Source of the DNA: Chrysophaeum taylorii
Lineage: Eukaryota > Sar > Pelagophyceae > Pelagomonadales > Pelagomonadaceae
NCBI GenBank assembly: GCA_029834535.1
Contig: JAQMWT010000267.1
Coordinates: 1-41,823 of the forward strand
DNA length: 41,823 bases
Direction: 5' to 3'
Part shown: one piece after another, positions 18,501 through 41,823 of the stretch
Numbering within the stretch: the stretch's first letter is position 1
Layout of the letters: each line of letters begins with the position of its first letter
Translations under genes and position numbers: made by a program
Notes under the pieces: model-generated
Told to the model about the DNA's origin: nothing
The model's input: only the letters and a program-made list of their open reading frames with translations
Database searches by the model: none

Positions 18501-21500
18501 TTGTGAGCGCAGCATGGAGAGCCGACACAACGGGCGCGACCTGCGTCTCGAGCTTGGGCATTTCGCTACGTTGCGCCGCGGCGCGACGCGAAGATACGCG
18601 ACGCCGACGACTTTCGGGCTTGCGTGCTTTCAGCAGAGGCAAGGCCATATAGGCATGCCCTTCCTCGTTCAGATAGACCCGAACAAGCGAGCTACTTGCA
18701 GATGTCCACAATTTCTTGCGGTCGTACGCCCCGAGGAGCCACCGCGCACCGTCGCCGCTGGCGTCGGCAAATAGCGTAATGCGGAGTCGCTCGGTCGCGG
18801 CGGCCGTCGCCGCGAGGGCGAAGTCACCGCAGACGCCGCCAGGCAGGATCCCACGCGCATTCCATGCTCTGTAGGCCAGTCCGCCCTCGCCGCAGCCACC
18901 AAAGTCGCAGGCTTCGTCTTCCGAGAGTGCATCGCACAGCGCCGGCGCAGCCCGAGGGAGTGCGACATAGGTCGCGCGGTTTGTCGAAGGCTCGACGTCC
19001 CAGTGCCATTCAATGTCGACGCACGTCAGTCGAGCGACAGCTCGTAGAAAGTCTTCGCGCATATTGAGAGCGGTTGCATAAGTCGCGGCCGCGGCGGCGG
19101 CCGCCGCGACGTTCGAAAGCCGGGCGTGATCAGCAGCCAATGAAGCCCGTCGAGCATCCCAGCGATTGAATGTCGTTTCGAGCTCCATGAACCTCTCGCA
19201 TGAGACGCGTTGCTTTGCTTGTATAGCGTTGATCTCATTGTCGTTCTCGCCCACGAGCGTCTTCATCAAATTCGACAGCTCTTTGGCAGCCGCCTGCACG
19301 GTTTTCGCGGCAAGGGCGGCATCCGCGGCGAGCAACAGCTTCTCGCGGGCCATATCGTCGGCGACCTTGGCTTTTAGATAGAGCCGCCACTTGGCAACGG
19401 CCTGCTGCATCATAGTTGCGCGAAACAAGTCGATGGCGGCCTGCACCCAGGTGGCAACGGGATAGCCGAGGTTGAGTCCCTGAGATCCGACCCGCTTCAT
19501 CGTCGCCGGAGCTGCGGACGGGTCGCTCATAACGGCCTCGGCCGCGGTCACAATGTCCTTCCACCGCTTCCGAATAGCCTCCGGCGGCTGGTCACTCGAA
19601 GTCGTACCTGCGGCAGCATCAGCGGCCGCGATAGCCCATTTTACAAGCTGGTCAGTCGCGTCGCGCTCACCCGTGTACCGCGCGTAGCCCTGCTCCCATG
19701 ACGGCTTCTTATCCTGAAGCAGAATCGACAGCCCTTCAAGGACGAGCTTGATGGGCCGTACCACCGTGTTCGTTGATGACGACCAGTCGAGTGCATCGTT
19801 GGTGTTGTCGGCGAAAGCTGAGAATAGCCGTTTGAGAGCATCGTCGTATTGGCCGAGCGTCTCGCCAAGTGCACCACGGTACGCGCGCCGCGCCTTATCA
19901 AGGGCATCTCCCGTTAGCTCGATTTCACGTACCGCCGCCTCATGTCGCTCAGAAGCCTCTTTAATCGGAACGCCGGCATGCTTGACCACCCCTGAGATCG
20001 CGATGCTACCCTGGTACGCGGCGTTGGCTCTCACCTTTGCTGTCTCTAAGCGTATCCCAAGCTGTGCTGTCAAGCGCCGGGACTCAGCAACCTTTCCAAT
20101 CGCAAAGTCGATCTGTCGCGTTGCGCTCGTTAGCATGCGCCCACGCCACACGGCTGCGTGTGTCGTCGCGACCAGCAACGCACGGTATGCATACAACGAC
20201 GCCCCCGCGGTGACATGGATTTCGGCACACATCCTTGCGAGCGCGGGTCGACACTCAACGGGAAGCACCTGGCGCACGACAGTGGCCGCCGCCATCGCAC
20301 GGTGCAGTCCGACGCCACCGTGCTTGTCGCCTGCCTTGCCTGATCGCGAGTCATCTTCTAGGCGCGCCAGCCACGCCACCAGCGGTGCGTGGTCCTCCTG
20401 GAGACTGCCAAGGAACCGCTCACCGACGGCGGCGAACGCCTCGACGCCCCATTCGTCGAAGGTGTCGACAACCGCCAAAGGAATGAATGCCTTCAGTGCA
20501 AGCCTCGAAGCTGGCTCAGCTGGCTCAAGCGTGGTTGTGCAAACAACCAGGCGCAGCCCATGACGTACCCGCGCACCGTATGTCAAGAGAGCAGCGTACG
20601 TTTGGTCCTCGCGGGTCTTGAGCTTGGAGTCGTCCTCGAAGTCAGTGACAAGCTTCTGAATGTCCTCTGGTCTGAGCGCGCGTGCGACATATCCGGTTGC
20701 CAGCACCGTCTTTAGGTCGTCAAGCCGGCGCGCAGTCAGCGGCGAGTGAGCCCAGGCCGAGTCGGCGATCACCAGCACTGCGCCGTTCGTGGTGGCCGCC
20801 ATGCTTGCCTTCCGTAAAGTTTCAAGCCAGCCAGCATCGCCGTCTGGTGGTGCTGTGCACCTCGTCGAATCCAGTTGCCCATCCTCCGTTGGCATGTATA
20901 TCATGTCGCCATTCAAGGAGATGGGCGGCGGCGGTGCGTGGAAAACCTGAGAAACCCCGACCAAATGCGCCGCAAGTTGAACGCAACTACGGCGCCCAAT
21001 ACCCTGGGGGCCGACCAAGACCAATGGAGCATCGAGCGCCATGGCACGAGCGGCCAGTGCAACGTGCCGAGCGTGGCCCGTTGCCGGTGACAAAACCACG
21101 CCCGACGGAGGCTGCCGTGTTTCGGCCAAGCCCGCGTTCAGAGACTCAAGACTCGGTCCCACCTGCGCCTCGACGGACTGCGAGCTATCTACGTAATGGT
21201 GGCCATTTACCACCAACAAGCTTTCTTCGACCCTGTTGCCGCCAAATTCCTGGAAGAGTTCGTGTGCCGCGACCCGAGAAAGGGACAAATCCCTCCCAAG
21301 CTCGAGGCCCCGCGCGACACGAACCGCAGCCCTGAGGCTACAGCCCGCGACGACCATCTCCATGATGTGGTTGAAGCCCTGTTTGTGCTTCGCGTCGCCG
21401 CACATGGCGCGGAAGACGGTTCGCAGGTCGTCGGGCGAGGCCGGCGCAACTGGAACCGAGGCAAAGTGTCGGCGCGCGCGGCAAGGTATCGTGGCTGCTG

Positions 21501-24500
21501 ACGTGACACCGAGAATCGCAACTCCGTGCGGTCGCAGGCACACAGGGGGTGCAGACGCATGGACCCGTTTCTGCTGGAGGTCTTTCAACGCAAGCCAACT
21601 CCTATGGTCTGCCAGCGACCTGAGGAACTCGTTTACAGTACAGTCGGTACGCTGGGGCAGCGCAACATCATCAACAATCAAAAGCACGCGGCGGCTCGCG
21701 TCGGGAGGCGCCAAGTGTGCGACACGCTCCAGAGTCCGCAACCTTTTTTGCTTTTTTTTCTTTCTTGACTGGAAGACAAGTCGGCGCCTGAGCGGCATCG
21801 CAACATCGTGGGCTGTCGATGTTGTAACGATTGGCACCTCTAACGGGTAAAGTCGGCCATTGTTGGCCTCACGTGCCGCGAATTCTCTTGCAATCGTCGT
21901 AGCCCCGACTCCGCGAGAGGAGCTCTCTATCAAAGCAACGCCGCCAATCGGTGGCAAACCCGCACCGAATGGCTTGGCGAGCAGCGACAGAGTAAACAAG
22001 GCGCTTTCGTCGCGAGGAGTGGGCACGTACAGAAAATCATTCGAGTAGGACTGCCATGGAATATTATCGTCAATTTCACGCCCAGGTACAAGCCCGGCGC
22101 AGGCAGCCTCGATCTGTGGGTCATCGCCAGCCAACTCTCGAAACCGTGCTTTGAGCCATTTCTGCACATCTTCGACCGCGATCGCGTGGCCGAGGACTCC
22201 CCAGGCGATTGCCCAGGCCACAGCACACGTGACACCAATCTCATCGGGTGGATCAGCATCTTCGTCTTTGCCGGAAGGGTCTAACAGTGCGGCGAGCAAA
22301 GAGCACATCGCCGACACACGCCGCGCGTCATTGTCCTCTAGATACAACTGCGGCTCCATGTCGAGGTCAGCAGGATCAAAATATGTCTGGCAATCAACCC
22401 TTCGTGCAACGGCGAGAGCAGTGTCGAGCGGACATGCAGGGTCTTCGAAAAATCCACGTAAGTTGTCGACAACCTCGTCGAGACCGAACTCACAGAGAGC
22501 CTGCTCCAGTTGCGAGAGCTGAAGCCACGCCAGTGCGCGCATCGCAGCCGGACTTGGACCTTCCCGGAGCGGCCGAGATTCACGAAAGGGCGGGAGCGAG
22601 ATGACACCGAGCCGCGAAATTAATGCCGGAGAGGCAGCAGCAAAGCTATCAGTTTCCACCACGAAGCGGATATCGCTGGCAGACATGCTCGCGCACATGC
22701 CTTCCGCGCGGTCGAAGAGGACCACGAACATCTCGCACGCGAGATGAGCCTCTGTCAGTCCGTCAAAAACGATCCATTGCTCGTGTACCACATCGTCGGC
22801 CGTATTGCGCAGATGGTGGCGGGCGCACGAGATGAAGCGGTGTATGATGCCCGCGCCACATGCGTCGTCGGCCGATCCAAAGACGTCCGCGAGTGTGAGC
22901 GACGCCGCCACCACGAAGTGCACATCCGCGTCCACACTTTCGGTTGCTTGCGCCCTAGCGCTGCACACAGCGCGCAATATGGTAGATTTCCCTGCACCAG
23001 CTGGTCCCACGAGGGCCACGCCGGCTGAGACGACCAGCGCGTCATCTAACGCTAACGCCGCCTCGAGCTGCTGGAAGCTCGGTTCGCCGCCACACACCGT
23101 CACGAATGCCCCGCTCGTCACGCGGCACGTCTTCTGGTCAAGCCCATCGTCGGCAGTCTTGTCACTTGCAGGCAGCGAAGCACTGACGATGTCCCTGAGC
23201 AGGTCGCAGTCCGCGCGGTCGACGAGTGGTAACATCATGATTGCAAGTGCTGCCGCTCGCAGCGCCCTTGCTTCCTGTGCCTCAACGATGGCGAAGTCTT
23301 CAGGCGTTGGTGGCTTACGCTCGTCGTCGTCGTCGTCGTCCAAGCCGAGGCCCGCCACGCACTTCACGGCGACTATGCTCGTGCCCCACTGCTTGCCGTT
23401 GCGAATAACATGGAGGCGTTCCGTGGCATCGCAGACAACAGATCGCACTGTCCGAAGACTCCATCGCGCGTGGACTTCTAAGTCGGTGCCTCCACCAAGC
23501 CTCGCATCGACAGCAAGGCGTAAAATGACTGCGAGTGCGTTCGAGGTGCGGACGGCCGTCGTAATCTCGAACCCACGGACCACAAGCTCCGCACGCGCGA
23601 CAGCGACGACCTCGGGCACCGGCACAAACACGGGCCGCCATGAGGGCACCTCATATGTTGCCGTGATAGCGATAAGTGGCATGCCGGCATGATGTGCATG
23701 TTGATGGTACTCTTCATTCTTGGGGCTCTCAGCACGCGCAAACGGCTTGAGCGGCACAGTCACTCCGCCAGGGAAATACACAGTCGGGGACCTTGTTGCA
23801 ACCGCCACTTGCAACGTGTGCATGTAGGCAGCCAGCGTCTGCAAGACCCGTGGCTCGCGTCTATCGCTGAGAGCTAAGATGAACCAGGCACCTGTTGAGG
23901 CAATTCCAGCGAAAACCCGCCCGAGGGATGCGACGGTGGCCTCTGCTTTGAGCCCAAAGTCTGCGCAGCATCGCTCGACGCATTGGAAGTAAAATGTCGC
24001 CGCAAGACCCTTAACGATCTCGCGCTTACCAACCCCCCGTGGGCCAACCAACGCAATACCTTGGAGTGAGTCCATGACAGTCGCGAGCGCCAACGCGCAT
24101 CGCCCCCCCAGTGGTGTCACAACCACCCTGGTACCACATCCGAGATACTCGGCACCAATTGGGAGCACGGCATTCACTTGGCGCGCGACGACTCCCAGAT
24201 CCGATATGCCCCTCATCAAGTGCGGCGTTTCGGCACTGTTGGTGCTAAGGCTTGATACGACGGCCTCTTCGATCCTTGTCTTGCCTCGAAGCAGCGGAGT
24301 GGCTCGTCGACGCGCCTCGGGGTTTCCCACAACGTAGAACCGAAGCTGCGATTGCCAAGTCCAGTCGTCGAGGCTCGTGAGGTGTTGGGCGGCACTGGCA
24401 ATGGCCGTAGCAGTGTCTCGGTGATGGATCGCCAACACAACCAGGGCTTCTTTTTTGGCGCAGACTGCCGGTTCAGCTTGACCGTTGTGCGCTACACCCG

Positions 24501-27500
24501 AAAAACGGCGATGTCGCAGCTCAGCTGCATATTCAGCGGCGACCGTAGCGCAGTCACGCGCAATTCGCAGCATGGCACCGTCGGTTCCCCCGGGGCGAAC
24601 AGTTGCTGCCAGTGCCTTCCCGACCTCAGCCGTCCAGACCAGGCGCTCGGCAAGCAACGCCGCTTGCAAGGGGATGTCCTCGGCGTCGGCGTCTTCACTT
24701 TTGATAATTGTGAGCTCGGCCGCGAGCGCCAACAGTCGCTTCCCCCCTCGTGCTCGGGAGCGCTGCTTAATAGCGGCGACGAAGGCAGTGCGAAGCGTCT
24801 CGACGATCTCTTTCTCGAGGTGGAGGAGCCAGCCTTCGGGCGGGCCGACGATGGGCACGGGAGAGTCGAGAACTAGCCGCTCTCCGACGGCGTCGACGAG
24901 GATTGCGATGCGCTGCACCGTGGGTGCCGATTGAAGCATATCGACTCCCTCGCTGTCTAGCTCGCCCTCAACCTCGGCAACGGCATTGAAGAGTGACGGC
25001 AAAACGCGCGCGACGGACCCAAGAACGTTCCCGGTGCGCCGCGCACTTGACGACTGAAGCTCGCTCAACGTTTTCAACAAGACACGGTCCGACAAGAAAA
25101 AGAAACGTGGGAAGGCGTCTCGCTTTTGCGCCACGTGCTCATTTAGCTCGCGCCGCAGTTCATCAAGCACTGCGAGGTCCTGTTTCCACGATACGAGTTG
25201 GTCATCGCAGGGGGCAGGTGGCAATGAGGCTGCCACTTCGTCGCACGGTCTATTGTCCAACCGCGACATTTCCAGAGAGTCTCCTCGAGAATGTTCGCCA
25301 CCCGGTGCTGTGACCAGGAGCATGGGCTTGGGACACTTGTGCCAGTACGGCAAAAGAGACTTCCACTTTCCACTGATGTTGGCAAAACGCATTCGTGCGT
25401 GCGCTAGTTGGTCACGAACCTTGAGGTCCCCGAGCAGAGACTCTAACGAGCGAATGAGGCGTGATAGCTCCTCGGCGGTCTGGACGGTCTCAGAGAGCAT
25501 ATCCAGCCGGGCCCGCCATGCGGCGATCAGCGGCCGTAAGGCGGCGCCATGCTCACCTAGCGCGGCATTCCGGAGGAATTCCCGGTGCTCGTTGATGAGC
25601 GCCACGACGTCGTCGAGTGGGCCGAGCTCGAACCGTTCCCTTTCACCAATCTTTGAGTCGTCGCTCCTGATGCTCGTTCCGCAGCTGCTCCGATAGTCAG
25701 GCTGGGACTCGGACATCGTGTCTTCATGTCCCATGATCTTCGAGACATCGCGGCCACCAGCGACCTCGACGACTGGTAAACACATGAGGTCCCACGCGCC
25801 CTCAAGCTCAACGATTGCCGCCTCGAGCTTGGCCTCGGCGGAAGATGCTGTCGAGACATGGTGAATGTAATCGCCGTGGTTCTTGATCCCAAACTCGACA
25901 AGCTCGCCCAGCGAAGTGATTGTTGGATCCAAGGTCAGTGTTGCTGTCTGGTCGGCCATGACCTGTGTGCCAATTTTCGTCCAATGTCTTGATTTGAGCG
26001 AGGGATTTCGGAGATCGACGGCAATTGGCGCTAGCGCCCGGAACTCACGGGTCTCCTTTACTAATGTTTCGGCCGCGCTTCCGTGATGCGCTTCGAGCTG
26101 TGGTGAGCCCGAGATTTTGATGGTCTCATCACCCAGGTCGGCACTGAAGTACACCAGTGTGTCCGCGTGCGGAGGAGCATTCAGTCTCGCTAGCAATTTT
26201 TGGCTCTCAGAAGCAAACCGCAGCGACTCGGCGTCTAGCTCGGCGGCGTCGAGTGCGACCAGCGGTTGCGACAGCCATCTCACGTGCATCTCGGTCCATC
26301 GAGTCACCATTTGCCAAAGAGTGAATGCGCGGGTGAAAAAGACCCGTGAGGCGCGGGTGTCTGCGGTAAAGGTCGTCTCGCTTGCTAGCCGAAGGGGCGC
26401 CTCATCACCGTGGCGCACAAACTCAAGCAAACCCCGCAGCTCGACTAGCTGACAATGCGAGCGTTCCAAGTCGTCCAGGGCACGTTTCGACGACCCCTCT
26501 AGACTTTCAAGCACCGTCGCCGGTTCCTTGAACTGTTCGTCATTCGAGGCCGCCATCTCGGCGAGCGCGGTTGCAAGTGTCGACGCCTGTTTCGCGCATC
26601 GTGTCAGTTCTGCATCAAATTCCTTGAGTACCAACGGTAGCTGCGAGTCACGCCAAATCATGTACGTCGCAACCGCAGATTCCCGTCGAGCCGCTTCGTC
26701 TCTGAGGGCCGAGATGTGTCCCACTGTCTCGATTTCCATCGCATTCGCCACCTCTTTGGCAACGTCGATTGATGTCCGGCTTCGCTCCTCATTATTGATT
26801 TGTTGCTCGTCCATCTCTTCTTGTTCGTAAGCGTCTGGTTGGGGAACGACTGTCTGCAGTTGCTGCTGCTCTCCCAGGACTTGTCGATCAGAGATTGCGA
26901 TCTCGAAGTCACTGTTCAGGACCTCGTGCTTCAACAACCCAACGATGTTCTGTGCGCCGACGGCGAGCAAATCAAGCACAGTCCATACGAACGACCGGAC
27001 AGAGACAACAGTCGCAGCATGCGTCGCGAAGTTGCGGAATGAGTCAGGGTACTGTTCGAGTAGGCGTCTTGCAGCTGTGGCAGCACCCCGTGCGGACCTG
27101 GCGTGCAGTCGCGCTGCGCGACGCGCGTCTTGCCGGATCATCTTGCGACGTGCAACACACGCAAATCCCAGCCGCTGCCGTAGTGGGCGCGTTATGCACT
27201 CGATCGCACCGCAGGATCCACGGGGTAACGCTCGGTTGAGTTCAGTGCGCCAACGCTTAAGCCTCGAAATATCGCGCGAAAGCAGGACCGTGTCACGCGC
27301 AGCTCGTACCGCGAGCGAGCGCCAGGCTCGAGGGTCGGATGCCGACGCGTCAGCTAGCTTGCACAACTCATCATCGTTGCGCGCTATGCCACTCGTCACC
27401 ACAGCCCCTCGTCGGGTACGGGCATCGATGTCATGCAGCGATCGGATTGGATCCAGGACCCCTGAGTACACATCGCCGCGCTCAAACGACGCGGAAATCT

Positions 27501-29997
27501 CAACACCTATCTCCAGCAGCGTCGATTGGTACGAGTCGTCGATAGTGACCAAAGAGTACACGCAGTCGCAGCGGTCTAGTGTTCCCAGGTGCTTCTCGAC
27601 GTTAACCGCGTTCGACTGTCGTCGAATTGAGCGTCGTCTTACTGTCGCAATAGTCTCCGGCTTGTCGTTGTCAGAACTATTCTCCTCTTCTTCCGCCTCC
27701 TTCGCGCGTGGTGTCACTTCTTCGACATCAAGCTCCTCTTCTCGCTGCAGAAAAGTCGACGAGCACATCGAAGACCCGACATCCTCATCTTCTTCCTGGA
27801 GATCAACGAGACGTCCTTGTACGTTGTTGTCACCAGTAGCAGGGAGGCTTCTGCCGTGTTGTTGGTGGTATACATCGACGCTAATTTGCGGCGTGTTCAT
27901 CTCTGCCGTAGCCTCAGTCGTCGCTTGCGTGCCAAGGCGTTCTCTGGCGCGCCGTTTAGCTTCTTTGAGTCTTAAACGCTCGTCGCACTGGGCTTGCTCA
28001 GCCTCGGCCGCCTTAAGTCGTTCTTCACGAACACGAGTCTCATCGAAAGGCGATGCCTCGAGCGCCTTGGCTTCAGCGATGGCTGCGGCCTTGGAGACAG
28101 CGATGTCATCAACGAAAGGCCACATCTCTCGGATCCTTGGCCGGTTCTCTAGGCCGACCACGGCCTCGTGCAAGATGTGTGCGGCTGCCTCAGAGACTTC
28201 ATCAAGGCTTGGCGTGAAATGTGTCCCACCGGCAAGTCGTACTCGTACCGCTGCTTCCGCTTCGCGCCTATTGGCTGCGGCCACATCGTCAGCGATATTC
28301 TCCAACAAAGCGATTGAAGCCTCGACCTGCGCTCCCGACACGCCGCCCGACTTATCAGTCCACTCTTCGTCGTTCCTCGCGTAGAGAGCCGCGGCGGCTC
28401 GTAACGACACTGCCGTGCTGCCAAGCGACGCCTTTCGTCTCTCTGTCGATGTGGACTCTGTGTCGGCGGTTGACAAGTCGTCGCTCGACGAATGCCTTCT
28501 CATGTGTGTCTCTTCGGCGCCCTCTGCGGTCAGCAACAAGGACATCACAGCGGCACCATCTTCCTGGAGTGCTGGTACCCCGCCCTCGCATAGCCCACGG
28601 CTTGTCGGCTCACTCTCGTCCTCATCAAGCTCTTCGAAAATGTCAATGGTGTCGTCGAAGGAGACTGTCACCTCCCACATGCCCTGATGGGAGTCGCGCG
28701 CATATTTGAGGCGCCTCAGCAGCACATGGGCCGCCGTTCTCGCCGATGTGACCAGTGCCTCGACGATGATGGCGTCAGTTAGCAACACGAAAGTGCCAAA
28801 CTCTGCACGTTCTTCGCGCTGTCGTTGACGCAGCTGCCGCCGCCGCCGCGCTTCCGCACGCGCCTGGGTCATCGGCAGATTCTTACGAAAAGCGGCGCGT
28901 GCGTCGATGGTGCCAGGTACCAAGCTGTCCAACCTTTGCTCTTCGCGCGCAGCACATGCTGCATCGTCGTGCTCGACAAGTGCGTGGATAGCCTGCCGTG
29001 CTTGCTGCAAGGCGTCGGCCGCTCGATCGATCGCTCCTGTGATCTCCGTCAGCGCCCATTTTAGCTGCGTCTCCTGTGCTTCCTCGAAGCTCGACAGCGT
29101 CACGGCATGAATTAGCTTTGGCTGTTGCTCATATGGAAAAGGCATCGCCCCCTGCTGCTTGGGGGCAGTCTTCGATGACTCGCGCGAACTTCTCGCGTAC
29201 CGACCTTCGGCACTCCCAGCACCAAACAGCTCGGACACCTGCAGCACGCGCTCCTGTTTCGCTTGAGCGCCGGCGGCCAGTGCCTCGCGGGCTTTGCGCT
29301 TGACTCGACCCACCGGGCACAAATACGAAAACTCCAAAGGCAGATCCTCGCTTGCGTGTGGCCGTTGGGGCAAGCTGCAGACACCCTGCGAGAGATCCAA
29401 GAGCCAAACATCACGGATGCGCGCCGCGCAGGCTGCCACCTCGTGGAGAGCTGCGGTGAACGACTCGCGGCCAATAAATAGTTTCTTCGCCAGCTTGTCT
29501 CGGAGCTTGCGCTGGCGTGATATCCGCGTCATCTTTCGCCATCTCGCAAGACACCGCAGCTCGCGCGCGTGTCGAAACAACTTGAATGATGACCGCAGAG
29601 CACGGAAAGCTGTCGCCTCCCACGTCCACTGCTCCAAATCCGTAACCTCAGCCGGTGGAGGTTCCAGTTTGATCAACGAGCTTGCAGACATAAGGTGTGT
29701 GTACCGGCCCGCGATTGGCGCTCGCCGCAGCGCATAAGCCTCAAACTCACCCAACTGCCCGTCGCGCATCAACGGCATGAACTTTACCCCAGGTTCGAAG
29801 ACCCGGCGCTCGCGAGCAAAGTAGTGCACTACCTCCTCACCCTTCAAAACGCGCTTTGATCGCCGTTTCTCGTAGGCCACCGACCGAGGCTGCCGGCGCT
29901 GCGACACGAGTGAGGGTAGCGACGAGTTTCCGTCGCTCTTGGAGGTGCCGATGCGTTCGGACTGTCGAAGGGCAGGCGTGCTTGCGCTCGACCGCAT
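15502..29997 (-). CDS. Divergent dynein heavy chain with a degenerate AAA1 site
   Basis: A single unbroken frame encodes about 4831 residues covering a whole dynein heavy chain. Residues 1-1480 form the tail, with several disordered acidic/Ser-rich stretches. The linker follows, with FPRFFFLS near 1625 and WTWQSQLRFY near 1878. AAA1 has GPRGVGKR at 1985-1992, where the expected Thr/Ser is Arg; at Walker B the acidic pair is replaced (Ala2042, Leu2043). AAA2 is intact (GPAGAGKS at 2331-2338, WIVFDG at 2408). AAA3 has lost its Walker A lysine (Ala2699) but keeps an LLIVDD motif. AAA4 has Arg3002 for Lys. The stalk coiled coil and microtubule-binding region span about 3290-3650. AAA5, AAA6 and the C-terminal domain follow, ending in the typical LPTHRSPDHWALRG motif. 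The best explanation is a non-motile or regulatory dynein class such as DNHD1-like; class assignment is inference. The first ATG is at 29997, and upstream exons are possible. Confidence 0.9.
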   Translation of the reverse strand: MRSSASTPALRQSERIGTSKSDGNSSLPSLVSQRRQPRSVAYEKRRSKRVLKGEEVVHYFARERRVFEPGVKFMPLMRDGQLGEFEAYALRRAPIAGRYTHLMSASSLIKLEPPPAEVTDLEQWTWEATAFRALRSSFKLFRHARELRCLARWRKMTRISRQRKLRDKLAKKLFIGRESFTAALHEVAACAARIRDVWLLDLSQGVCSLPQRPHASEDLPLEFSYLCPVGRVKRKAREALAAGAQAKQERVLQVSELFGAGSAEGRYARSSRESSKTAPKQQGAMPFPYEQQPKLIHAVTLSSFEEAQETQLKWALTEITGAIDRAADALQQARQAIHALVEHDDAACAAREEQRLDSLVPGTIDARAAFRKNLPMTQARAEARRRRQLRQRQREERAEFGTFVLLTDAIIVEALVTSARTAAHVLLRRLKYARDSHQGMWEVTVSFDDTIDIFEELDEDESEPTSRGLCEGGVPALQEDGAAVMSLLLTAEGAEETHMRRHSSSDDLSTADTESTSTERRKASLGSTAVSLRAAAALYARNDEEWTDKSGGVSGAQVEASIALLENIADDVAAANRREAEAAVRVRLAGGTHFTPSLDEVSEAAAHILHEAVVGLENRPRIREMWPFVDDIAVSKAAAIAEAKALEASPFDETRVREERLKAAEAEQAQCDERLRLKEAKRRARERLGTQATTEATAEMNTPQISVDVYHQQHGRSLPATGDNNVQGRLVDLQEEDEDVGSSMCSSTFLQREEELDVEEVTPRAKEAEEEENSSDNDKPETIATVRRRSIRRQSNAVNVEKHLGTLDRCDCVYSLVTIDDSYQSTLLEIGVEISASFERGDVYSGVLDPIRSLHDIDARTRRGAVVTSGIARNDDELCKLADASASDPRAWRSLAVRAARDTVLLSRDISRLKRWRTELNRALPRGSCGAIECITRPLRQRLGFACVARRKMIRQDARRAARLHARSARGAATAARRLLEQYPDSFRNFATHAATVVSVRSFVWTVLDLLAVGAQNIVGLLKHEVLNSDFEIAISDRQVLGEQQQLQTVVPQPDAYEQEEMDEQQINNEERSRTSIDVAKEVANAMEIETVGHISALRDEAARRESAVATYMIWRDSQLPLVLKEFDAELTRCAKQASTLATALAEMAASNDEQFKEPATVLESLEGSSKRALDDLERSHCQLVELRGLLEFVRHGDEAPLRLASETTFTADTRASRVFFTRAFTLWQMVTRWTEMHVRWLSQPLVALDAAELDAESLRFASESQKLLARLNAPPHADTLVYFSADLGDETIKISGSPQLEAHHGSAAETLVKETREFRALAPIAVDLRNPSLKSRHWTKIGTQVMADQTATLTLDPTITSLGELVEFGIKNHGDYIHHVSTASSAEAKLEAAIVELEGAWDLMCLPVVEVAGGRDVSKIMGHEDTMSESQPDYRSSCGTSIRSDDSKIGERERFELGPLDDVVALINEHREFLRNAALGEHGAALRPLIAAWRARLDMLSETVQTAEELSRLIRSLESLLGDLKVRDQLAHARMRFANISGKWKSLLPYWHKCPKPMLLVTAPGGEHSRGDSLEMSRLDNRPCDEVAASLPPAPCDDQLVSWKQDLAVLDELRRELNEHVAQKRDAFPRFFFLSDRVLLKTLSELQSSSARRTGNVLGSVARVLPSLFNAVAEVEGELDSEGVDMLQSAPTVQRIAILVDAVGERLVLDSPVPIVGPPEGWLLHLEKEIVETLRTAFVAAIKQRSRARGGKRLLALAAELTIIKSEDADAEDIPLQAALLAERLVWTAEVGKALAATVRPGGTDGAMLRIARDCATVAAEYAAELRHRRFSGVAHNGQAEPAVCAKKEALVVLAIHHRDTATAIASAAQHLTSLDDWTWQSQLRFYVVGNPEARRRATPLLRGKTRIEEAVVSSLSTNSAETPHLMRGISDLGVVARQVNAVLPIGAEYLGCGTRVVVTPLGGRCALALATVMDSLQGIALVGPRGVGKREIVKGLAATFYFQCVERCCADFGLKAEATVASLGRVFAGIASTGAWFILALSDRREPRVLQTLAAYMHTLQVAVATRSPTVYFPGGVTVPLKPFARAESPKNEEYHQHAHHAGMPLIAITATYEVPSWRPVFVPVPEVVAVARAELVVRGFEITTAVRTSNALAVILRLAVDARLGGGTDLEVHARWSLRTVRSVVCDATERLHVIRNGKQWGTSIVAVKCVAGLGLDDDDDDERKPPTPEDFAIVEAQEARALRAAALAIMMLPLVDRADCDLLRDIVSASLPASDKTADDGLDQKTCRVTSGAFVTVCGGEPSFQQLEAALALDDALVVSAGVALVGPAGAGKSTILRAVCSARAQATESVDADVHFVVAASLTLADVFGSADDACGAGIIHRFISCARHHLRNTADDVVHEQWIVFDGLTEAHLACEMFVVLFDRAEGMCASMSASDIRFVVETDSFAAASPALISRLGVISLPPFRESRPLREGPSPAAMRALAWLQLSQLEQALCEFGLDEVVDNLRGFFEDPACPLDTALAVARRVDCQTYFDPADLDMEPQLYLEDNDARRVSAMCSLLAALLDPSGKDEDADPPDEIGVTCAVAWAIAWGVLGHAIAVEDVQKWLKARFRELAGDDPQIEAACAGLVPGREIDDNIPWQSYSNDFLYVPTPRDESALFTLSLLAKPFGAGLPPIGGVALIESSSRGVGATTIAREFAAREANNGRLYPLEVPIVTTSTAHDVAMPLRRRLVFQSRKKKKQKRLRTLERVAHLAPPDASRRVLLIVDDVALPQRTDCTVNEFLRSLADHRSWLALKDLQQKRVHASAPPVCLRPHGVAILGVTSAATIPCRARRHFASVPVAPASPDDLRTVFRAMCGDAKHKQGFNHIMEMVVAGCSLRAAVRVARGLELGRDLSLSRVAAHELFQEFGGNRVEESLLVVNGHHYVDSSQSVEAQVGPSLESLNAGLAETRQPPSGVVLSPATGHARHVALAARAMALDAPLVLVGPQGIGRRSCVQLAAHLVGVSQVFHAPPPPISLNGDMIYMPTEDGQLDSTRCTAPPDGDAGWLETLRKASMAATTNGAVLVIADSAWAHSPLTARRLDDLKTVLATGYVARALRPEDIQKLVTDFEDDSKLKTREDQTYAALLTYGARVRHGLRLVVCTTTLEPAEPASRLALKAFIPLAVVDTFDEWGVEAFAAVGERFLGSLQEDHAPLVAWLARLEDDSRSGKAGDKHGGVGLHRAMAAATVVRQVLPVECRPALARMCAEIHVTAGASLYAYRALLVATTHAAVWRGRMLTSATRQIDFAIGKVAESRRLTAQLGIRLETAKVRANAAYQGSIAISGVVKHAGVPIKEASERHEAAVREIELTGDALDKARRAYRGALGETLGQYDDALKRLFSAFADNTNDALDWSSSTNTVVRPIKLVLEGLSILLQDKKPSWEQGYARYTGERDATDQLVKWAIAAADAAAGTTSSDQPPEAIRKRWKDIVTAAEAVMSDPSAAPATMKRVGSQGLNLGYPVATWVQAAIDLFRATMMQQAVAKWRLYLKAKVADDMAREKLLLAADAALAAKTVQAAAKELSNLMKTLVGENDNEINAIQAKQRVSCERFMELETTFNRWDARRASLAADHARLSNVAAAAAAAATYATALNMREDFLRAVARLTCVDIEWHWDVEPSTNRATYVALPRAAPALCDALSEDEACDFGGCGEGGLAYRAWNARGILPGGVCGDFALAATAAATERLRITLFADASGDGARWLLGAYDRKKLWTSASSSLVRVYLNEEGHAYMALPLLKARKPESRRRRVSSRRAAAQRSEMPKLETQVAPVVSALHAALTIGAAVVLVELPDAFFASPAAFRAFFEPLEPLLRARIDRELAATTDPPLSRVLKNHFGTSDIVNDPEQDCSRSRLVLRAAVPAETIREVSQGSSVAAALSLVETASNVATRLVEGALEALPPVEPPYGGLVAAERRFTEGALLATIAAREQDDALLELAARQDPGAIFVLPDNETGESNTPPLLAAARLRFGLERKAAAAVSDLAKTINALDAARRDLVPSAQATADVVDTCPLSSHVARFAAVVRHACKSCDGLTRPEFDPCEAALAAWLLERPSLSAEQVLPQALATALRTSQRTHGAFREELLCHPPHLAKELEAELPTELRGLSVVASDASWQAALDDAPETWLFATERAPAAVRAFFHALHPAVKLMVARVLRPERFVSVARALVAAVLGQEVVDDRIFLVQPVDQWPPVAPDSRFAPRYVAEKQRGTAAFAVAVLKHAAEAAGPAAPVVVRCVGGTGPPLVAVLETAARQMQWLRQPNVVDVSVGFPSAEANDEACAAILAAAFETGDWVVVRAARSCWMPTLLAQLDVADVVAATTKHPLIPSHRLFVVADQVSFDIVSRCGATVVLEAPSTPRARLAVSLADDGGVFAPSIFPQLLDVEQRAFYAQALLRALAAGREDLAPSALVTWCGFAATESEPSPGASILSDELVFARACRRAHLVLFQSQEPNLASPQLARHAPNIAALSALGKRALDAAQTAGTSPSWLTAPSYRDVNAVKDYVCGLPNYDDDNDDANGLVARAIPVSQSPAEAEKHRPSVVVDRIAEVSARLSEVSARLAEACRATGWSAALWRQELEYLGHAYAAGDLVSEAQHEVLVATWPRHGGFPEKGLPLARLARPERFFVALRLAAGGSLGSFACALHEPAHAGAVRICGLHLGGAGALGESGFLDEMEPQDAAGRDLLALWVWVDEECSVPPASTVDDLGAMLLERPIFVPPSNTTSSPAASKSTTYECPLYRDTSRADLLAMLRLPTHRSPDHWALRGCALFLDGAA

Positions 29998-30031
29998 CCC
30001 TGCGATCGTCACAAGTATCCTAACGCAGATT

Positions 30032-33419: not shown

Positions 33420-36400
33420 TCAATGGATGTCAGTGATTGCCGCAGCGCGCATGAGCTCATAGAGGTGATGTTGCTTCTTGGAGAGCGTTCGGACTTGCGA
33501 AAACCAGATCTGGAGCTCAACGAGAATCGGGACCGACATGATATCGGTATCAACCACGCAATTGATATGAAAATTGAACGGGATAATCTTGGCCTTGACC
33601 TTGTTCTTGAGACGAACGATCCGCAGCTTGCCACTGGGATCATTACTGAGGGCCTTCCAGGTGTTGAGAAATGTAACGGCATCGTGACAGACGATCGAAG
33701 CCCGGAGCGCGTCGGTGACATGGGCACAGTGTGGCCGCTGGTCAGATCCTTTCTCGAGCTGAAGTTCTTCGACCTTTGCTCGCAAGCGGTTTGTGAGCTT
33801 GAGGGCGATGTCGGGCTTGCAGACAAACAGGGAACCGTCATGAGCGTCATCTGTGTTATCGCTCTCCATTGCAGGGAGAGCCAATGCGACGTCATCATTG
33901 AGCTTGGGAGCGGAAGGCATGATAGTGGCTTTGGTGGTCGTGGGCTTGAGATCTTCAACAGCTTCGAGATCAGGCACGAGGTGTCGGACGAGTTGCACGA
34001 AGGGCTCGTAAGCAAAGGCGGAGACCTGGTGGATGAGCGAAGGGAAGACCTCGGTGTCGAGCGCTTCGAGAAAGGTGTCGTCAGCCGAGAGCTTGGCGAG
34101 CGCACCCCAGAGATCACTGGTTTCTGGCGAGAGTGCGGCGTGTCTGATGTCATCCTCGCGCGCAAAATTGTCGATTTTGAGCAGCTCAGATCCGCCGGGA
34201 TTGTCGAGGATGTTCTCGGTGCACGTGAGCATCGCCAGCCGAATTTCATCATTTCGCGTGAAGGCAATCATCCGGAGACGCTCAAAGTTAGTGACTGTCG
34301 TCGAGGATGTGGTCGCGAGGGCGACAATTGACTCGACTGGTAGCGCTTCAACGTCTTGGATGTGCGCCTCGACAAGCGCCTTTTCGAAGTAATGCGCGAT
34401 AGGCCCAAAGACGTACTCAAGCTTTTTTGAAGAGGCTGAGGAGTCGGCCCACCGAGAGATAATCCAGCGCTCGTGTGCCCGTAGCACCGAGACAAGCGGC
34501 GTGGTGTCGTTCCAATATGCAGTGATTGGGCAGAGGTACTTTGTGAAATACAACCAACAGGCGTTGTGGTTTGCGCCATTGACCGAGCTGGACTTCATGA
34601 TCTTGTCAATCGCAACTTCAACAGCCGATGCAAGGGTCGCAGCCACGCTGCCACCCTGGTTATAGAAGCGACAAAATTCGTCGGAATCAAAAAGCTCCAT
34701 GTCGTGAATGGTCTCAACGAGCGTGGTGAGCACCGCAGCGCGACTGGCACGATACATTTGCACGATGGTTAGGCCGTAAATAAAAGCAAGAGATGAGGAA
34801 AGTTTTAGGTTGTTATCCGAAGACAGCTCGCCAAGCTTAAAGATAGCTCCGACCGTCACAGCCAAGGCGACATTTACGTTGCAAAGCTGAAAAACTTGCC
34901 CGTGGTCGACTTGGTTGCGCAGCGGCTTGCATTCCGCGCAGAGGTACAAATACATGTTGGCCGTGATGACTGAGATAGCTAATCGAAGCTTCTGGTTGCC
35001 GATAATAAGGAGTTGGCCACCACAGCACACTATACGAACGCCAACAACGACAGCCTCCCAGTACCAGTACTGACTAGCATAGCGTGATACGAGAGCATTG
35101 AGTGCACTGCGTTCCCGCAGTATGACGCCAGCATGCCAGAGGTACACAACACACCCAAGCGGCAGAGCGACGACGTGGAGCAAGAGCATAACAAACACGA
35201 AAGGGCGGAAAGCCTTGTACATGTCGCTGTCGCACGAAATGCTGTATTGCGATGCAACCACGTAGTGACTCGAGACACGGCGGGCGGGGTCGTCGCTGGC
35301 CTTTTCATAGGGACCGTCGCAGTTGAAATATTCGATAAGCGTCACACAGATGGGCGTATAGAAGAGGAGCATGAAATAAACAAAACTCGATCGGTATTTC
35401 TGAAGCATCTCTCCCGTATCATCTTCAGCGAGGCTGCGCGCGGCCTTTTCATCGTGCGAGACTTTACCATCCGTGCGAAGCGCGATGCGAGCTTGGTGCG
35501 CCAAGTATGCAAGAGAAACGAAAATAGCCACAACGATAGACACGAGCGCATAGGCTGCAACGTAGTTGTAGTACGAAAATAAGTTGCTCGTACAAACAGA
35601 GACGAGGCCGAACTCCGTCATAAAGGCGAAGATCGAGAGCACTGATCCATAGGGCGATGGGAATACTATTTTTTCCACGCGCGTGAAGATGACAATGAAT
35701 TGCATGGAAAGCCACAAGAAAAGCAGCGTTGTGACCCACCATTTGAGGTGCTCAAAGTGGGACATCAATTTTTCCGTGTTTTCGGCATGGGCTCTTTCGC
35801 GCGCTCGAAGTGTTTTTCTCACCAGCAAGGCGACGGCGATCGCTGCGATAAATAGCAATATCGAGAGGATGATCATGCTTTCTATGCCCGAGCACTCACT
35901 GCACTTGCCTGTCCACGTGAGATAGTAGCCACGCTCGCAGACGTTACAGAGGGTATCCTTGGCATGCGCACCGCAGAGTGCGTCGCCAGATCCAACACCC
36001 CCAGGGCAATTTTCCTCTTGGTAGCACTTTTCGATTTCCGTTGAGTCGACGCGCGCTCGCCAGTACTTCTTATCCACGCGAACAGTACTTAGCAGTCTCT
36101 CCTCGATTGGCGTCTCCAGCTCGCACACCATACCATCGATACACTCGCTGCACTTGCCGATCTCCCCGCTGTCGTCGTAGTAGTGAAACGCGGTGCACGT
36201 CTCACACGTAGTTTCGTCGGTCGACATGATCTCGCCTGGCTGACACGCGCGGAGAGCCAGCCGCACCTCGGTTCTCAGCTCTGTGGACACGGCGCTGATT
36301 GTCACGGTCGTGTCGGGCTTGTAAATAAATCGGGTGTTTTGCGATGTCGTTGCGACACCCATAACAAACGACAGCTTCGAGTCGCCGTCCATGAGTGCAC

Positions 36401-38862
36401 CCTCTTCGACCGGAGAGATTTCAACCACAGTGTCTCCGCCATCCAAAGAAACCACGACTTGTCCCTCGGCATCCCGCGCCTCGATCACAATTGGTGAATT
36501 GAGCACCTTGCCGCTCGCCTCCACACCGCTTTCGCTCGTGATTTCAAGTGCCGCAATGTTTGAGGCAATGATGGGCCCGTACATCGCCTTGTTATCAGTC
36601 ACCGTCGCCCCTGTCGGAATCACTGGCGATGACGTCGTCGTGTGGTCGTAGAAAAGGACACCACCTCCTTCCGACGCTTCGTTCATTGTCATGCTGTCCA
36701 AGTCTCCGAATGAGATGCTTGACGCTGAAGCCAGCGAGCAGACTGCGCCATTCGCGGCCCTATTGCTGACATATGTCGAGTCTTCACTCTTCATCTCTGA
36801 AATGTCATCAAGCATGACAGCACCCCCGTATTCCCGTGCACTATTTTGCTCGATTTGCGTGCCGCTCACATTGATGTGCGAACGCTCGGCATAAAGCGCA
36901 CCGCCCGAGACCGACGCCATATTGTTTTCGAGCTCGGAGTCCTCTAACAGCAGCGTGCCCTCGGCCATCAAAGCCAAGCCACCACCGTATTGTGCTGAGC
37001 AGTTTTCGACAACGATGTGTGCTGCGTGCAAACTCGCACTGCGCGTGATTGCCACCGCGCCGCCGTAGTCTCGCGCGACGCATCCTTGAAAAATAAAGCC
37101 CGAGATATCAAAACTGCCAAGCTCTCCAAAGAGAATGCAACCGCCCGAGCCTTCCGATGCAACGTTGTGTCGGAACCGCACAAATGTTGAGTTCAACGCG
37201 ATTTCGTCTTCGTCTTCGTCTTCGTCATCCTGTACCTCATCCTCATCCTCTTCGTCCGTTTCTTCAAGGCGCCGATCTTCCTCTCCTTCTTTCTCGTCCT
37301 CGTCCTCTTCCTCTTCGTCCTCGTCCTCGTCCTCTTCGTCCTCGTCCTCGTCCTCGTCTTCCTCTTCTCCCTCATTAAAGTCGCTTGTAGTCATTACGCG
37401 CGACGCACTGTCGTAAAGGTAGAGGCCGCCAGCGTCCGAGCCAGCGGTGTTGTACTCAACGAGTGTTTTCCCACCCAGAACCACTGAAGTTCCAACGTCT
37501 GCCCCGATGGCACCCGCTGCTGTCTGCGCCGAGTTGAAGCCAAAGTAGCAGTTCATACGCAGATTCCCGCGGGAGGCGTGTATGCCCCCGCTGCGATACG
37601 CTTGGTTGTGCATAAACGATCCTTCGAACGTCCCAGAGCCCTCGACCACGAACACAGCACCACCATAGCCTCCCGCAACATTTCCTTGAATGCTGGTCTC
37701 GGGCCCGGTTCTCAGATAGGCGGCGTCTTCTTCAAGTTTTAAACCGCCTCCGGAGCCCGCGGCCACATTGTCTCGGATTTGCGCGCGCTCCGTGAGGTCA
37801 ATGTACGCACCGTGAACGTAGAGGCCACCGCCCGATCCATCTTCGGCTTGGTTGTTTTTGATCGTCGAGTCGTCGGTAAAATGCGCGTAGCTGGAAGAAC
37901 CACTAAGACACACCCCCCCACCCTCCTCTGCTCGGTTGTTTGCTATGGTCGAGTAGTCGTGCATGTAGAAGAACGCGGACCTCTCTTCGGAGTCGTCCTC
38001 GAGCAGCACGCCCCCTGCGTAGGAGTAGATTATGAGATTGTCGGACGACGCGGTCCTCACCTCCGCACTCGTCGGCGGTGTTGTCATCAATGCTCGAGTT
38101 TCCACGTAAATACAAGCTCGACTGAATCGTCAACGTGATACCGCCTCCCTGGTCGTCGGCTTCGTTTGCGTAGACCCGGGCCTGGTCGAACATGCGGACG
38201 GTACAGTTTACCGTCCCGAATACGCCCCCTCCGAAGAGGCCCGCCTCGTTGTCGTCGATCGATGAGGATCCGCGCATAACGATCGACGAAGATGCCTCCG
38301 CGTACACCCCCCCCCCACGAACGGCCGTCGATTCTGTGATTCGAGCTGCGTCGTTCATTTCGAGCGACGACGTCGACGTCGCCGCGACACCCCCACCGTT
38401 CTCGCTAGCGGAACATTCCTCAAGCGCAGTATCGCCGGAAATTGCGACGTTGCTTTTGTCTTTGGCGGCGATGCAGCCACCTATCTCAGCTGAACACTCG
38501 GAGATGTGGGCGTCGCGGAGCATAAGATGAGCACCGTCCTCAACAAGGATGCACCCGCCCTCTGTGGCGCTTCCTCCCGACAGCGATACGCCCTCAAGCC
38601 AAAGCTTCGTGCTTGCGCCATTGACTGTGATGAGGCGAGTATCCCCCGAAGCTATGATCGTCCCGGCTCCGCGGATGGTCACACGACGTCCATCACTCAC
38701 CAACAGTGGCGTAGCGAGTGTGAAGCTTTCGCCCTCTTTCAGGTCGATAATGCTGGAATTCCCGTTCCCAATGGCGTCGATGAGCCCTTGGAGATCTTCG
38801 CCCAACACATTCGCAAAGCACGCCAAGATGACGAAAAATCGTATTTGCCGCAACAATGACAT
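33420..38862 (-). CDS. Beta-helix/Cys-rich multi-pass membrane protein, two exons
   Basis: Joining exon 1 (38862-38061) to exon 2 (38014-33420) across a 46-nt GT-AG intron (38015-38060) gives a continuous 1798-residue protein and restores the repeat motif CGGGVLLEDD at the junction. A signal peptide (MSLLRQIRFFVILACFANVL) starts it. Residues of roughly 25-800 form a right-handed parallel beta-helix of short repeats with GGG, NN/DN and small residues, like Pmp-type adhesin solenoids. The repeats are interrupted at about 480-540 by an almost purely Asp/Glu insert. A Cys-rich region (about 850-970, CxxC pairs) resembles growth-factor-receptor-type modules. Multiple membrane helices start near 975 and continue to about 1300, followed by a large cytoplasmic tail. 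This architecture is known in algae and other protists as cell-surface receptor-like proteins of unknown ligand. A role in adhesion or sensing is inference. ATG 38862 was chosen because it begins the signal peptide. Confidence 0.85.
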
Positions 38863-39300
38863 GGCGCCAGATATATCTCCCGCGAATGCTAGGGCAATCG
38901 GTTGTTTGTTCACTTGTTGTCGACTACGACGGTCGTCTTGGTGCTAGCCGAACGCTCGCGTTAATTATTTAACGTGTTGCAGACCTACAAGATACCAAGT
39001 ATTAAAGACTTATTTTCGAAGCTTAGTATGTATCTAAGATATTGTGTGACGTGGTAATTCTATGGGTAAGGCTCAATAAACAACTAACATTTCTGAAGCA
39101 CCAAACGAGTGACCCGGTGAGGGTTTAGGATTTGGTGGTTCGTGGGGTCGACTCGACGACGCTTGGAGGCGTCGCGCTCCGGAGCTGGTCGACTTGACGT
39201 CGTCGTGCACCTGCGAGCGTGGTAAATTTATGATGGAAGAGCGGCGGCTTGAGGGAGGAAGGAAGGAAGGAAGGAAGCGCGGGCAAGGTGGGGTTTTTGT
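38863..39300. other. Spacer between the beta-helix gene and the Fanzor-like gene
   Basis: It is AT-rich at 38960-39060, probably the beta-helix gene's promoter on the minus strand. It then becomes GC-rich with repeated GTCGAC/GACGTC words at about 39148-39210 and a GGAA tetranucleotide run at 39257-39275. The last part is the 3' flank of the Fanzor-like frame, where a guide RNA would be expected by analogy with TnpB loci; no RNA structure was verified. Confidence 0.35.
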
Positions 39301-41823
39301 TCAAGCGTCGGCAGTGGTGGATCGGCGGGATGCTCTCGCAACCAAGGCCTCCTCGACAGACTTTCTTCGTTCTTTGGCAATCTTGCGACGTTTGGTCGAT
39401 AAGTATTTCCCGAGGCCCTTGTCCTTTTTCACGTCGACGTATGGTTCGTTTCCGTCGCCGTCACCACGAAGCGCGTAGCCGGTGTCGTGGGGTTGTGGTC
39501 GCTGGGTGTTCGACCAGCGTCGTTGGACGCCCGTCGCGTTCGCGAGAGCAGTCTGCGCCAGGATCCGAGACGCGAGCACGTCGCGTCGATGCATCACGTG
39601 GCACGACGTGCAGTAGGAAGTGCCGTGTGCCTTCCACGACCCGTGGACGTGCTGCTTCACAACCCCCCCACAAAAACAGCAGGTCCAGTTGGACCGGTGT
39701 TCGTCGGTGTATGCCGACGAGACGTTGTCGCGCTGGGTGATCTCCTTGGCCACCTGCTTCTCGGGCGCGCTGTCAACGCCGACTTTGATTGCTTGCTTCG
39801 GCCCGAGAAACTTCGCGGCACGGTCGCCGTACCCGAGGCTTACCTGCATTCGCAGCGGCGCGACGCGGTTTGCCACGCCCGCCCGCCACGACTGCTTGCG
39901 CTGGATCAGCGCCATGCTCTGGCGCTTGGACCTGCTGCTGTTCTCGATGATGTTGCCTCGGTCGTGGTTTTTGAGGTACGTCTTGAGCGCGTCGAGCACA
40001 TCCTCCTTTGTCCGGGGGTTGCGGCGCCGCTAGTCGTCGATGTCAATTTCCAACGGCGCTTGCATATCGTCTTTCCGAGCTTCTTGCTCCCTTGCCCAGC
40101 GGCTGTTGCGCCTCCTGACGTGATTCTCGATTCGGGCTTTGTTGCGCATGTCCCTCGCAGGAACCTGCAACGTCGTCCACAACGCATTCTGGTCCCGCGG
40201 GTCGCGGAAGTGCGAGCGTATGCGTCGCGATCGACGTCCTTCGGCTCGGGCCTTTTCGTGCAGACGCGCACGTTTCGAGTTGAGCTCGCAATCGGCTCGC
40301 AGGCCAACACCCTCGGCCTTGCCGCGATCGACCACGTGCATGCAGACGGGGTACTTGATCCCCGGATCAATGTCCCCGAAGATGTCGCAGTCGTCGAGGT
40401 TCAAGCCGCCATCGCCGTCCGCTTCCGGCGGTGGCTGTTCGGGCGGCCGGGGTCGCATGGGCGGCTGGATCAGTGGGCGTCCCAAATGGGGGCGTTGCGC
40501 TGACAGTCGCTCCGCGAGCAACTGGTGTTGCGGGAGTTGCTCGTGCATCGGCGTTCTCGCGCCCGCTCGAGGACTCTCGGACTCGCCGGCGTCGGCGTGC
40601 GTGTCGTCCAAGGCTTCTGCTGCCTCCTCGGGCTCTTCTTCGACGGCGACCCCGTCGTCGCTCTCTTGGTCGCCGCTCTCGTGCCCAACGCGACGACGAC
40701 GATCCCTCCGACGACCGACGGGGATCCGGACGCCGATGCCGTCCGTGAAGATAACCTTCTTCATAGTCGGCGCACGGTTCGGGGACTTGTACGCCTTCCG
40801 TAGGTCGTACAGGTCGTCGACGCCAACGGTCGGAAGCGAGTCCAAGTCCACGTCTATGCCCAACCATCACACTATAAACCGTAAGCCCTCCTGTACGATG
40901 GCGTCGGTAACGGGCATGTAGCTGTCTTTGTGCCCTCGCATGAGCGGAAACAGGGTGCCCGGGTCGTACGCCTTGGCGATGACCAACGGATTGTTGGCCG
41001 GATCTTCGCCCGCGCTGTCGTCGCCTATAGACTGCTGTCGCGCAGCCACGCGACTGTACTGGAGAATCTCGAGGGTCGCCTTGATTTTCTGCCGCAGTAT
41101 TTCCAGCAACCGCTGGAGGTCTTCTTTTCGGCCTCTAGCAACTTTGCCGAGTTTTTTTTGCTCTTCGCGGCTCGCGAACCTCGTAGCATGTTCGATCGCG
41201 TAGAGCTTGACGACGAACTGGTAGAGCGGCGAAAGGGCAACACGCAAGTACTCGCGCTTGTCGGGGTCCCACGAGGCCTGGCCGTAGGCTTCGGCCAACA
41301 TTCGCGCCGCCTGACGGTGGCTCACGGGCCTATTGCCAGTAAGCTTCAACGGCACGTCGTAGGGGTTCGGAGGATCCCTCTCTTGCGTTTTTTTTTGGGG
41401 GGGGGTGGATAGCGAAGCGGATCTGCCTCCACCCCGTCTCGTCGAAGTCTAATGCGTCTCGCAGCCTTGCGCCTTCCGACGTGTTTTCCTGCACCATGCT
41501 CCATTTTTGCCTGATGATCTCCGGCTGCGTCATGAAGCGAAAGTGCGCGACGCGCTCTTGGTAGTCGTGCACCACCACCGTCTGTTTTTGGTTTTGCGCT
41601 ACGTTTATAGCGATCTCGGCGTCGATGGGCGCAAAGTCCATCTTCGCTTCGGCAGCGCACATCCTGAGCTCGTCGAAGGTCGTCGGATTCGCGTTTAGAA
41701 CAGACGTAACGGCTTCGACCGTGCCTCGGGATAAAGACGGGCGACAGCGTGAAGTACTCGCGCTGTTACCGTCGAACGCCGCATCGAGGGTCCTGCATGC
41801 CCCGACGTACGCACGTGGCGTCG
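39301..41823 (-). pseudogene. Fanzor1-type RNA-guided endonuclease, interrupted and truncated by the window edge
   Basis: Fanzor1 proteins are eukaryotic relatives of TnpB/Cas12: RuvC nucleases guided by a short RNA. Going downstream on the minus strand the motifs come in family order: a TDG motif (KKVIFTDGIGVRIPV, Asp codon 40743-40741); a RuvC-I Asp in DIDPGIKYPV (40368-40366); a Glu in TDEHRSNWTC (39702-39700), the family's relocated glutamate; a four-Cys zinc finger (CCFC and CTSC, about 39685-39600); and the terminal Asp in HRRDVLASR (39582-39580). The spacing from RuvC-I Asp to the finger is about 225 residues, within the published range. A long charged insert (about 40540-40720) separates TDG from RuvC-I. 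Breaks: TGA at 40869-40867, TAG at 40032-40030, and a frame shift near the C9/A9 tract at 41387-41404. The frame upstream stays open to the right edge, so the N-terminus is outside. Decay or unresolved introns are both possible. Confidence 0.78.

Follow-up and report, generated by a model that had tools for sequence, protein, structure and literature searches.

Organization of the locus

The window, by which we mean the whole 41,823-nucleotide stretch that was analysed (Chrysophaeum taylorii, contig JAQMWT010000267.1), carries at its right-hand end a broken minus-strand gene with Fanzor-like motifs. The roughly 190 nucleotides that follow its stop codon are conserved among copies elsewhere in the genome. 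The gene and this non-coding stretch form the 3'-terminal part of a dispersed element, of which the Fanzor-like gene is the last gene, and the contig ends at 41823, within the element (Table 1). The reading frame is divided by two in-frame stop codons, and a further N-terminal stretch lies in a different frame. In both C36 copies the equivalent of this further stretch reads unbroken into the main frame, and the ancestral protein would have had about 930 residues if the stretch belongs to the gene.

Next to the element, at window 39021-39105, lies another dispersed repeat, about 85 bases long and with 34 more genomic matches, some of them side by side. Two overlapping minus-strand frames at 33420-38913 represent a beta-helix, polymorphic-membrane-protein-like gene, whose probable start codon is some 250 bases away from the element's end, and a minus-strand open frame of 4836 residues at 15502-30012 is dynein heavy chain-like by inspection. 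The 3' end of the element (39111-39135, minus strand) contains CCTAAACCCT, which resembles part of the plant/algal telomere repeat, possibly by chance.

Table 1. Features of the element in the window.
Feature	Position	Strand	Remarks
3'-terminal part of mobile element	39109..41823	-	left end placed from copies with differing flanks
Conserved 3' non-coding stretch	39109..39300	-	element terminus; candidate omega-RNA
C-terminal frame, 242 codons	39304..40029	-	relocated glutamate, C4 finger and RD; stop TGA 39303-39301
RD, residues 591-592	39580..39585	-	putative RuvC-III aspartate D592
C4 zinc finger	39601..39681	-	CCFC (C559, C562) and CTSC (C582, C585)
Relocated glutamate E552	39700..39702	-	6 residues ahead of the finger, within TDEHRSNWTC
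In-frame TAG	40030..40032	-	
Middle frame, 278 codons	40033..40866	-	TDG, acidic/proline-rich linker, DPG
DPG	40360..40368	-	putative RuvC-I aspartate D330
TDG, residue 204	40738..40746	-	
In-frame TGA	40867..40869	-	
N-terminal half	40870..41355	-	in frame with the middle and C-terminal parts
Extra N-terminal coding stretch	41333..41821	-	different frame
C9A9 tract	41388..41405	-	frame change point; length varies among copies

Motifs and spacing of the Fanzor-like gene

Residues are numbered along the minus-strand frame 39304-41355, read through its two stops. In this one frame TDG, DPG, DEHRSNWTC, two CxxC pairs and HRRDVLASR follow each other in the order given by the first-pass annotation. 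The published Fanzor signature is D-X(125,275)-[TS]-[TS]-X-X-[C4 finger]-X(5,50)-RD, with 125-275 residues between the aspartate and the Ser/Thr pair (PMC3627910). Here D330 is separated from the S555-N556 pair by 224 residues, the CxxC pairs are separated by 19 residues, and 5 residues lie between the last cysteine and RD. The full signature is absent from the window copy, in which the second [TS] position is Asn, and the remainder fits; the earlier reading, a match in everything except a Ser-Asn in place of the Ser/Thr pair, is confirmed by the spacing, the E-x6-C, the C4 finger and the RD. The Asn is found in all 19 copies legible at this position, and is therefore a trait of the family.

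In PMC10711439 a DPG combined with a glutamate six positions ahead of the finger is named as the molecular fingerprint of the Fanzors, and the spacing from E552 to C559 is exactly E-x6-C. The relocated glutamate is kept in each of the 19 copies that cover the site. Of 16 copies that match at the DPG site, 13 read IDPG; the C481 copy has NPG instead of DPG, and both C36 copies shift frame after DP. A second DPG lies upstream, at residue 131, and is not the signature DPG. D330, E552 and D592 constitute a putative catalytic triad, which is accompanied by the C4 finger.

A regular expression for the fingerprint (DPG...E-x6-CxxC...CxxC...D), drawn up after the sequence had been seen and with wider gaps than the bacterial expression of PMC10711439, matched the six frames of the window once when internal stops were allowed. 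It had no match in the window when stops were disallowed, since the TAG falls inside the matched stretch, and none in 300 residue-shuffled versions; the chance expectation for the finger part by itself is 0.003 per window. The gaps of the bacterial expression are 120-160 and 12-18 (PMC10711439), and those of the window copy, 219 and 19, are both outside these ranges.

Copies, ends and contents of the element

In the 70.8 Mb of the organism's own genome (697 contigs), 34 DNA matches were found at about 28 places, and 10 of the 27 places other than the window are at least 95% identical. At the protein level there were 54 matches at E values up to 1, counting pieces and the second family described below. 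The C55 and C546 copies extend about 10 kb beyond the part present in the window, the upstream homology continuing also in C398, and from end to end the element measures 12,656 bases in C55 and 13,377 bases in C546. In an alignment of 20 3' ends, a common terminal block is present in 17 rows (15 by pattern, with altered versions in C546 and C393) and lacking in C538, C245 and C328; the 17 rows pass into different flanks beyond it. C55, C546 and C460 have a common 5' terminus next to three different flanks. Carriage by a mobile element, as had been proposed, is supported by dispersed copies with differing flanks.

Queries with the 3' end and the 5' end of the element gave 26 and 7 matches, respectively, with partial matches counted and with contig ends as a possible contributor to the imbalance. 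Comparison of the two ends gave no inverted match in C55 or in C546; the element has no terminal inverted repeats. Searches with single flanks of the window copy and C546 yielded no allelic empty site. The genome also contains 40 matches to Helitron Rep, several of them in open frames of more than 1000 residues.

The large open frames of the element lie on the same strand as the Fanzor-like gene, and three of those upstream of it (L069, L070 and L071) are large orphans. Scanning of the upstream frames against Pfam gave nothing above cut-off, and neither a transposase nor a serine recombinase was recognised; one piece matched a thioredoxin family at an E value of 0.011, below cut-off. The sole PDB match of the first upstream frame, USP21, lies near its Cys and His boxes and is not significant (E 1.3). 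One upstream frame was searched against the protein database, with no homologue among the best 8000 candidates. The orphan frames appear, by eye only, to bear Ulp1-like and USP-like cysteine-protease-like motifs. No description of a comparable element was found in the titles and abstract openings of the literature searched.

Decay of the window copy and substitution pattern of the family

The window copy is broken by the features listed in Table 1 and does not therefore encode a working nuclease; it is also cut off by the end of the contig. Among 16 copies compared, third codon positions show the most change in C36a, C36b and C109 and do not do so in the other 13. dN/dS is 0.54 and 0.48 to the diverged copies C36a and C109, respectively, and 0.71-1.13 to seven other copies compared. 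This pattern fits past selection on the protein, together with near-neutral decay of the recent copies.

The conserved 3' stretch, which includes a variable TTCC tract (39251-39276), may have had a role as RNA, by analogy with characterised Fanzors. Its folding is moderate (z -1.8), compensatory change was seen in 0 of 18 pairs, and there was no match in Rfam.

Similarity to TnpB and a second Fanzor-like family

The Pfam family TNB (Cas12f1-like) matches the window C-terminus at an E value of 0.014, below cut-off. All seven members of alignment A2 match TNB, always below cut-off, and it is the top family for six of them; for the member L042 another family ranks higher. Of six related frames, four matched TNB and two, the full L042 frame and L052, did not. 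The NCBIfam model guided_TnpB matched one of four proteins, at 14.2 bits against a cut-off of 100 (E 0.019). In the profile check suggested by the first-pass annotation, TNB is matched by every A2 member and no library match reaches cut-off.

Among PDB entries, the A2 profile aligns with the mimivirus TnpB-like protein L79 (9b0l; E 0.022) along E-x6-CxxC...CxxC...RD. We take L79 to be a Fanzor2. In the protein database no homologue was found with residues 330-640 of the C546 frame as query, nor among the best 8000 candidates with A2 as query. Searches of viral contigs and of phages gave no relative, and none of the 19 frames read from bacterial loci, sought as pro-Fanzors, carries the E-x6-CxxC fingerprint. 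For the structure check that the first-pass annotation had suggested, two single-sequence fold models were both poor (pLDDT 48 and 47, pTM 0.18 and 0.20), and the RuvC fold is putative.

A six-frame search of the genome with TNB found eight places, none of them above cut-off and none of them the window. Four (L004, L005, L007 and L008) were discarded after their frames had been read. The other four, in C409, C314, C29 and the decayed C9, make up a second dispersed Fanzor-like family (L003:634-1857, L002:1459-2538, L001:1087-1839 and L006:1417-2157), with TNB E values of 6e-4, 3e-4, 9e-5 and 0.026, all below cut-off. C409 and C314 agree with each other at 95% identity, and this agreement extends about 390 bases beyond the stop codon. 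The second family has the DPG (C29 is truncated ahead of this motif) and EFRSS-TC, that is, a Ser-Ser pair, and reads RE at the position expected to be RD. DPG, LGPK, E-x6-C and the finger are common to both families, in identical order.

Profile comparisons with hhalign, whose values are rough with so few sequences in the profiles, gave 95% (E 2e-8) for the window family against the second family, over 136 columns extending well past the finger. Against 13 TnpB-like proteins from bacterial loci, the second family reached 86% (E 5e-6, 67 columns) and both families combined 87%; the window family aligned directly with TnpB gave a weak 12.7%, and a control with reversed sequences 0.5%.

Comparison with known Fanzors and their carriers

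The gene resembles Fanzor1 (PMC3627910, PMC10711439) in its DPG, the glutamate six residues before the C4 finger, the RD and the spacing from the aspartate to the Ser/Thr pair, and also in its long N-terminal part and its carriage by a transposable element outside IS607. It differs in the Asn at the second Ser/Thr position and in scoring below profile cut-offs, and its carrier is assigned to none of the superfamilies named in PMC3627910 and PMC10711439. A Fanzor1 label would rest on the length, the long N-terminal part and the non-IS607 setting. Fanzor2, as represented by L79, shares the alignable stretch of glutamate, finger and RD; the present protein is longer, and the open frames scanned include no recognisable serine recombinase. 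On sequence grounds the gene is a Fanzor by fingerprint, short of the full published signature, and its carrier is unusual.

In contrast to a lone Fanzor gene, the gene described here occupies the 3'-terminal place in an element some 13 kb long. The Helitron2-type elements CRe-1, 2 and 3 of Chlamydomonas (PMC3627910) likewise have a Fanzor-type gene, no terminal inverted repeats, a 5' palindrome, 3' ends commoner than 5' ends, and short copies; the present element differs in its size, in its additional large open frames, in that no ends shared with a Helitron were found, and in that just one of its copies has a border repeat. MCi-2 of Mucor is similarly an unclassified carrier with no terminal inverted repeats and no certain transposase (PMC3627910). 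In MCi-2 the target duplications measure 11-12 bp, and one of its subfamilies carries a partial Crypton transposase (PMC3627910); neither feature is established for the present element.

Interpretation and alternatives

The stretch is probably the 3'-terminal part of an element about 13 kb long, present here as a decayed copy, that is dispersed in the genome and was mobile until recently; its last gene encoded a RuvC-type nuclease of the Fanzor/TnpB superfamily. The gene product appears to be a very diverged relative of Fanzors, the eukaryotic counterparts of the CRISPR-Cas12 nucleases. Directly observed on its behalf are the motifs with their spacing, near-identical dispersed copies in differing flanks, the common 3' terminus and the excess of 3' over 5' ends. 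It is very doubtful that the gene encoded instead a zinc-ribbon protein of the mS66 sort, unrelated to RuvC nucleases, in which DPG and RD would stand beside the finger by chance. The kinetoplastid ribosomal protein mS66 is indeed the top PDB match (E 7.6e-5 with the window C-terminus, 0.003 with A2), the window family by itself matches TnpB weakly, and the fold models lend no support to any fold; however, the mS66 match to the window C-terminus consists of two short finger segments of 11 and 15 bits, TNB is the leading Pfam family in nearly all A2 members, and the second family repeats the four shared features in the same order, with a match far longer than the finger. A protein that belongs to the RuvC/TnpB superfamily on a separate derived branch, and is not a strict phylogenetic Fanzor1, is a possibility of some weight, though we think it the less probable reading. 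It would accommodate the invariant Asn, the RE of the second family, the two gaps outside the bacterial expression and the lack of homologues in the protein database (with A2, among the best 8000 candidates), while the DPG with the relocated glutamate, the Fanzor fingerprint of PMC10711439, speaks against it.

As to the carrier, it could be a non-autonomous Helitron2-like element similar to CRe-1, 2 and 3 and moved by the Helitrons of the genome, which we regard as unlikely. In its favour are the lack of terminal inverted repeats, the imbalance between 3' and 5' ends, a palindrome near where C55 begins at its 5' side, the border repeat of the short copy C177b and the Rep matches in the genome. 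However, a 3' end and a Rep match occur together on only two contigs, where they lie about 135 kb from each other; each of the 14 places showing the terminal pattern matches the Fanzor gene as well, a check that weakly similar ends would escape; inspection revealed no asymmetric inverted repeat at the 3' end; and the 5' end of the element reads GTAC. At C177b the border repeat measures 15 bases, one of them mismatched, and was found in 0 of 194 controls; 6 of its bases fall inside the element and 9 outside. The repeat of C177a (9 bases) was equalled in 5 of 197 controls, and in seven further copies there is none beyond chance. Spread of the copies as segmental duplications, not by transposition, seems highly improbable: the two C177 copies are separated by about 2 kb, the two C36 copies share a contig, the window copy adjoins a dispersed repeat, and C55 and C154 have right-hand flanking sequence in common, but most 3' ends keep the terminal block and then diverge, and the three copies with a common 5' terminus are flanked differently there.

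Returning to the decayed Fanzor-bearing element, the use of RNA by characterised Fanzors (PMC10432273) is the basis for a possible mechanism. The active ancestral protein would have bound RNA from the 3' end of the element, the 190 nucleotides after the stop codon, with a guide portion derived from flanking DNA; the nuclease would then have cut empty sites, and repair would have copied the element back. Both the guiding by RNA and the role in persistence are inferred. Of the proposal that this is an RNA-guided nuclease locus, the Fanzor-like fingerprint and the relation to the second family uphold the affinity, whereas a working nuclease at the locus is contradicted by the broken copy. A bolder reading, which we consider improbable at present, is that of a distinct class of large eukaryotic mobile elements whose sole recognisable nucleic-acid enzyme is a RuvC nuclease of Fanzor-like type, carried alongside giant orphan proteins with cysteine-protease-like motifs (seen by eye). 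If this is true, the nuclease's own cut-and-copy would be the element's means of persistence.

The observations extend the Fanzor fingerprint to a family missed by profile libraries and place two dispersed Fanzor-like families in one genome, the second of which serves as a bridge for spotting very diverged members. The interest lies more in the unusual carrier than in the enzyme: a large element without inverted repeats or a recognised transposase is a place to ask whether such nucleases aid the persistence of the elements that carry them.
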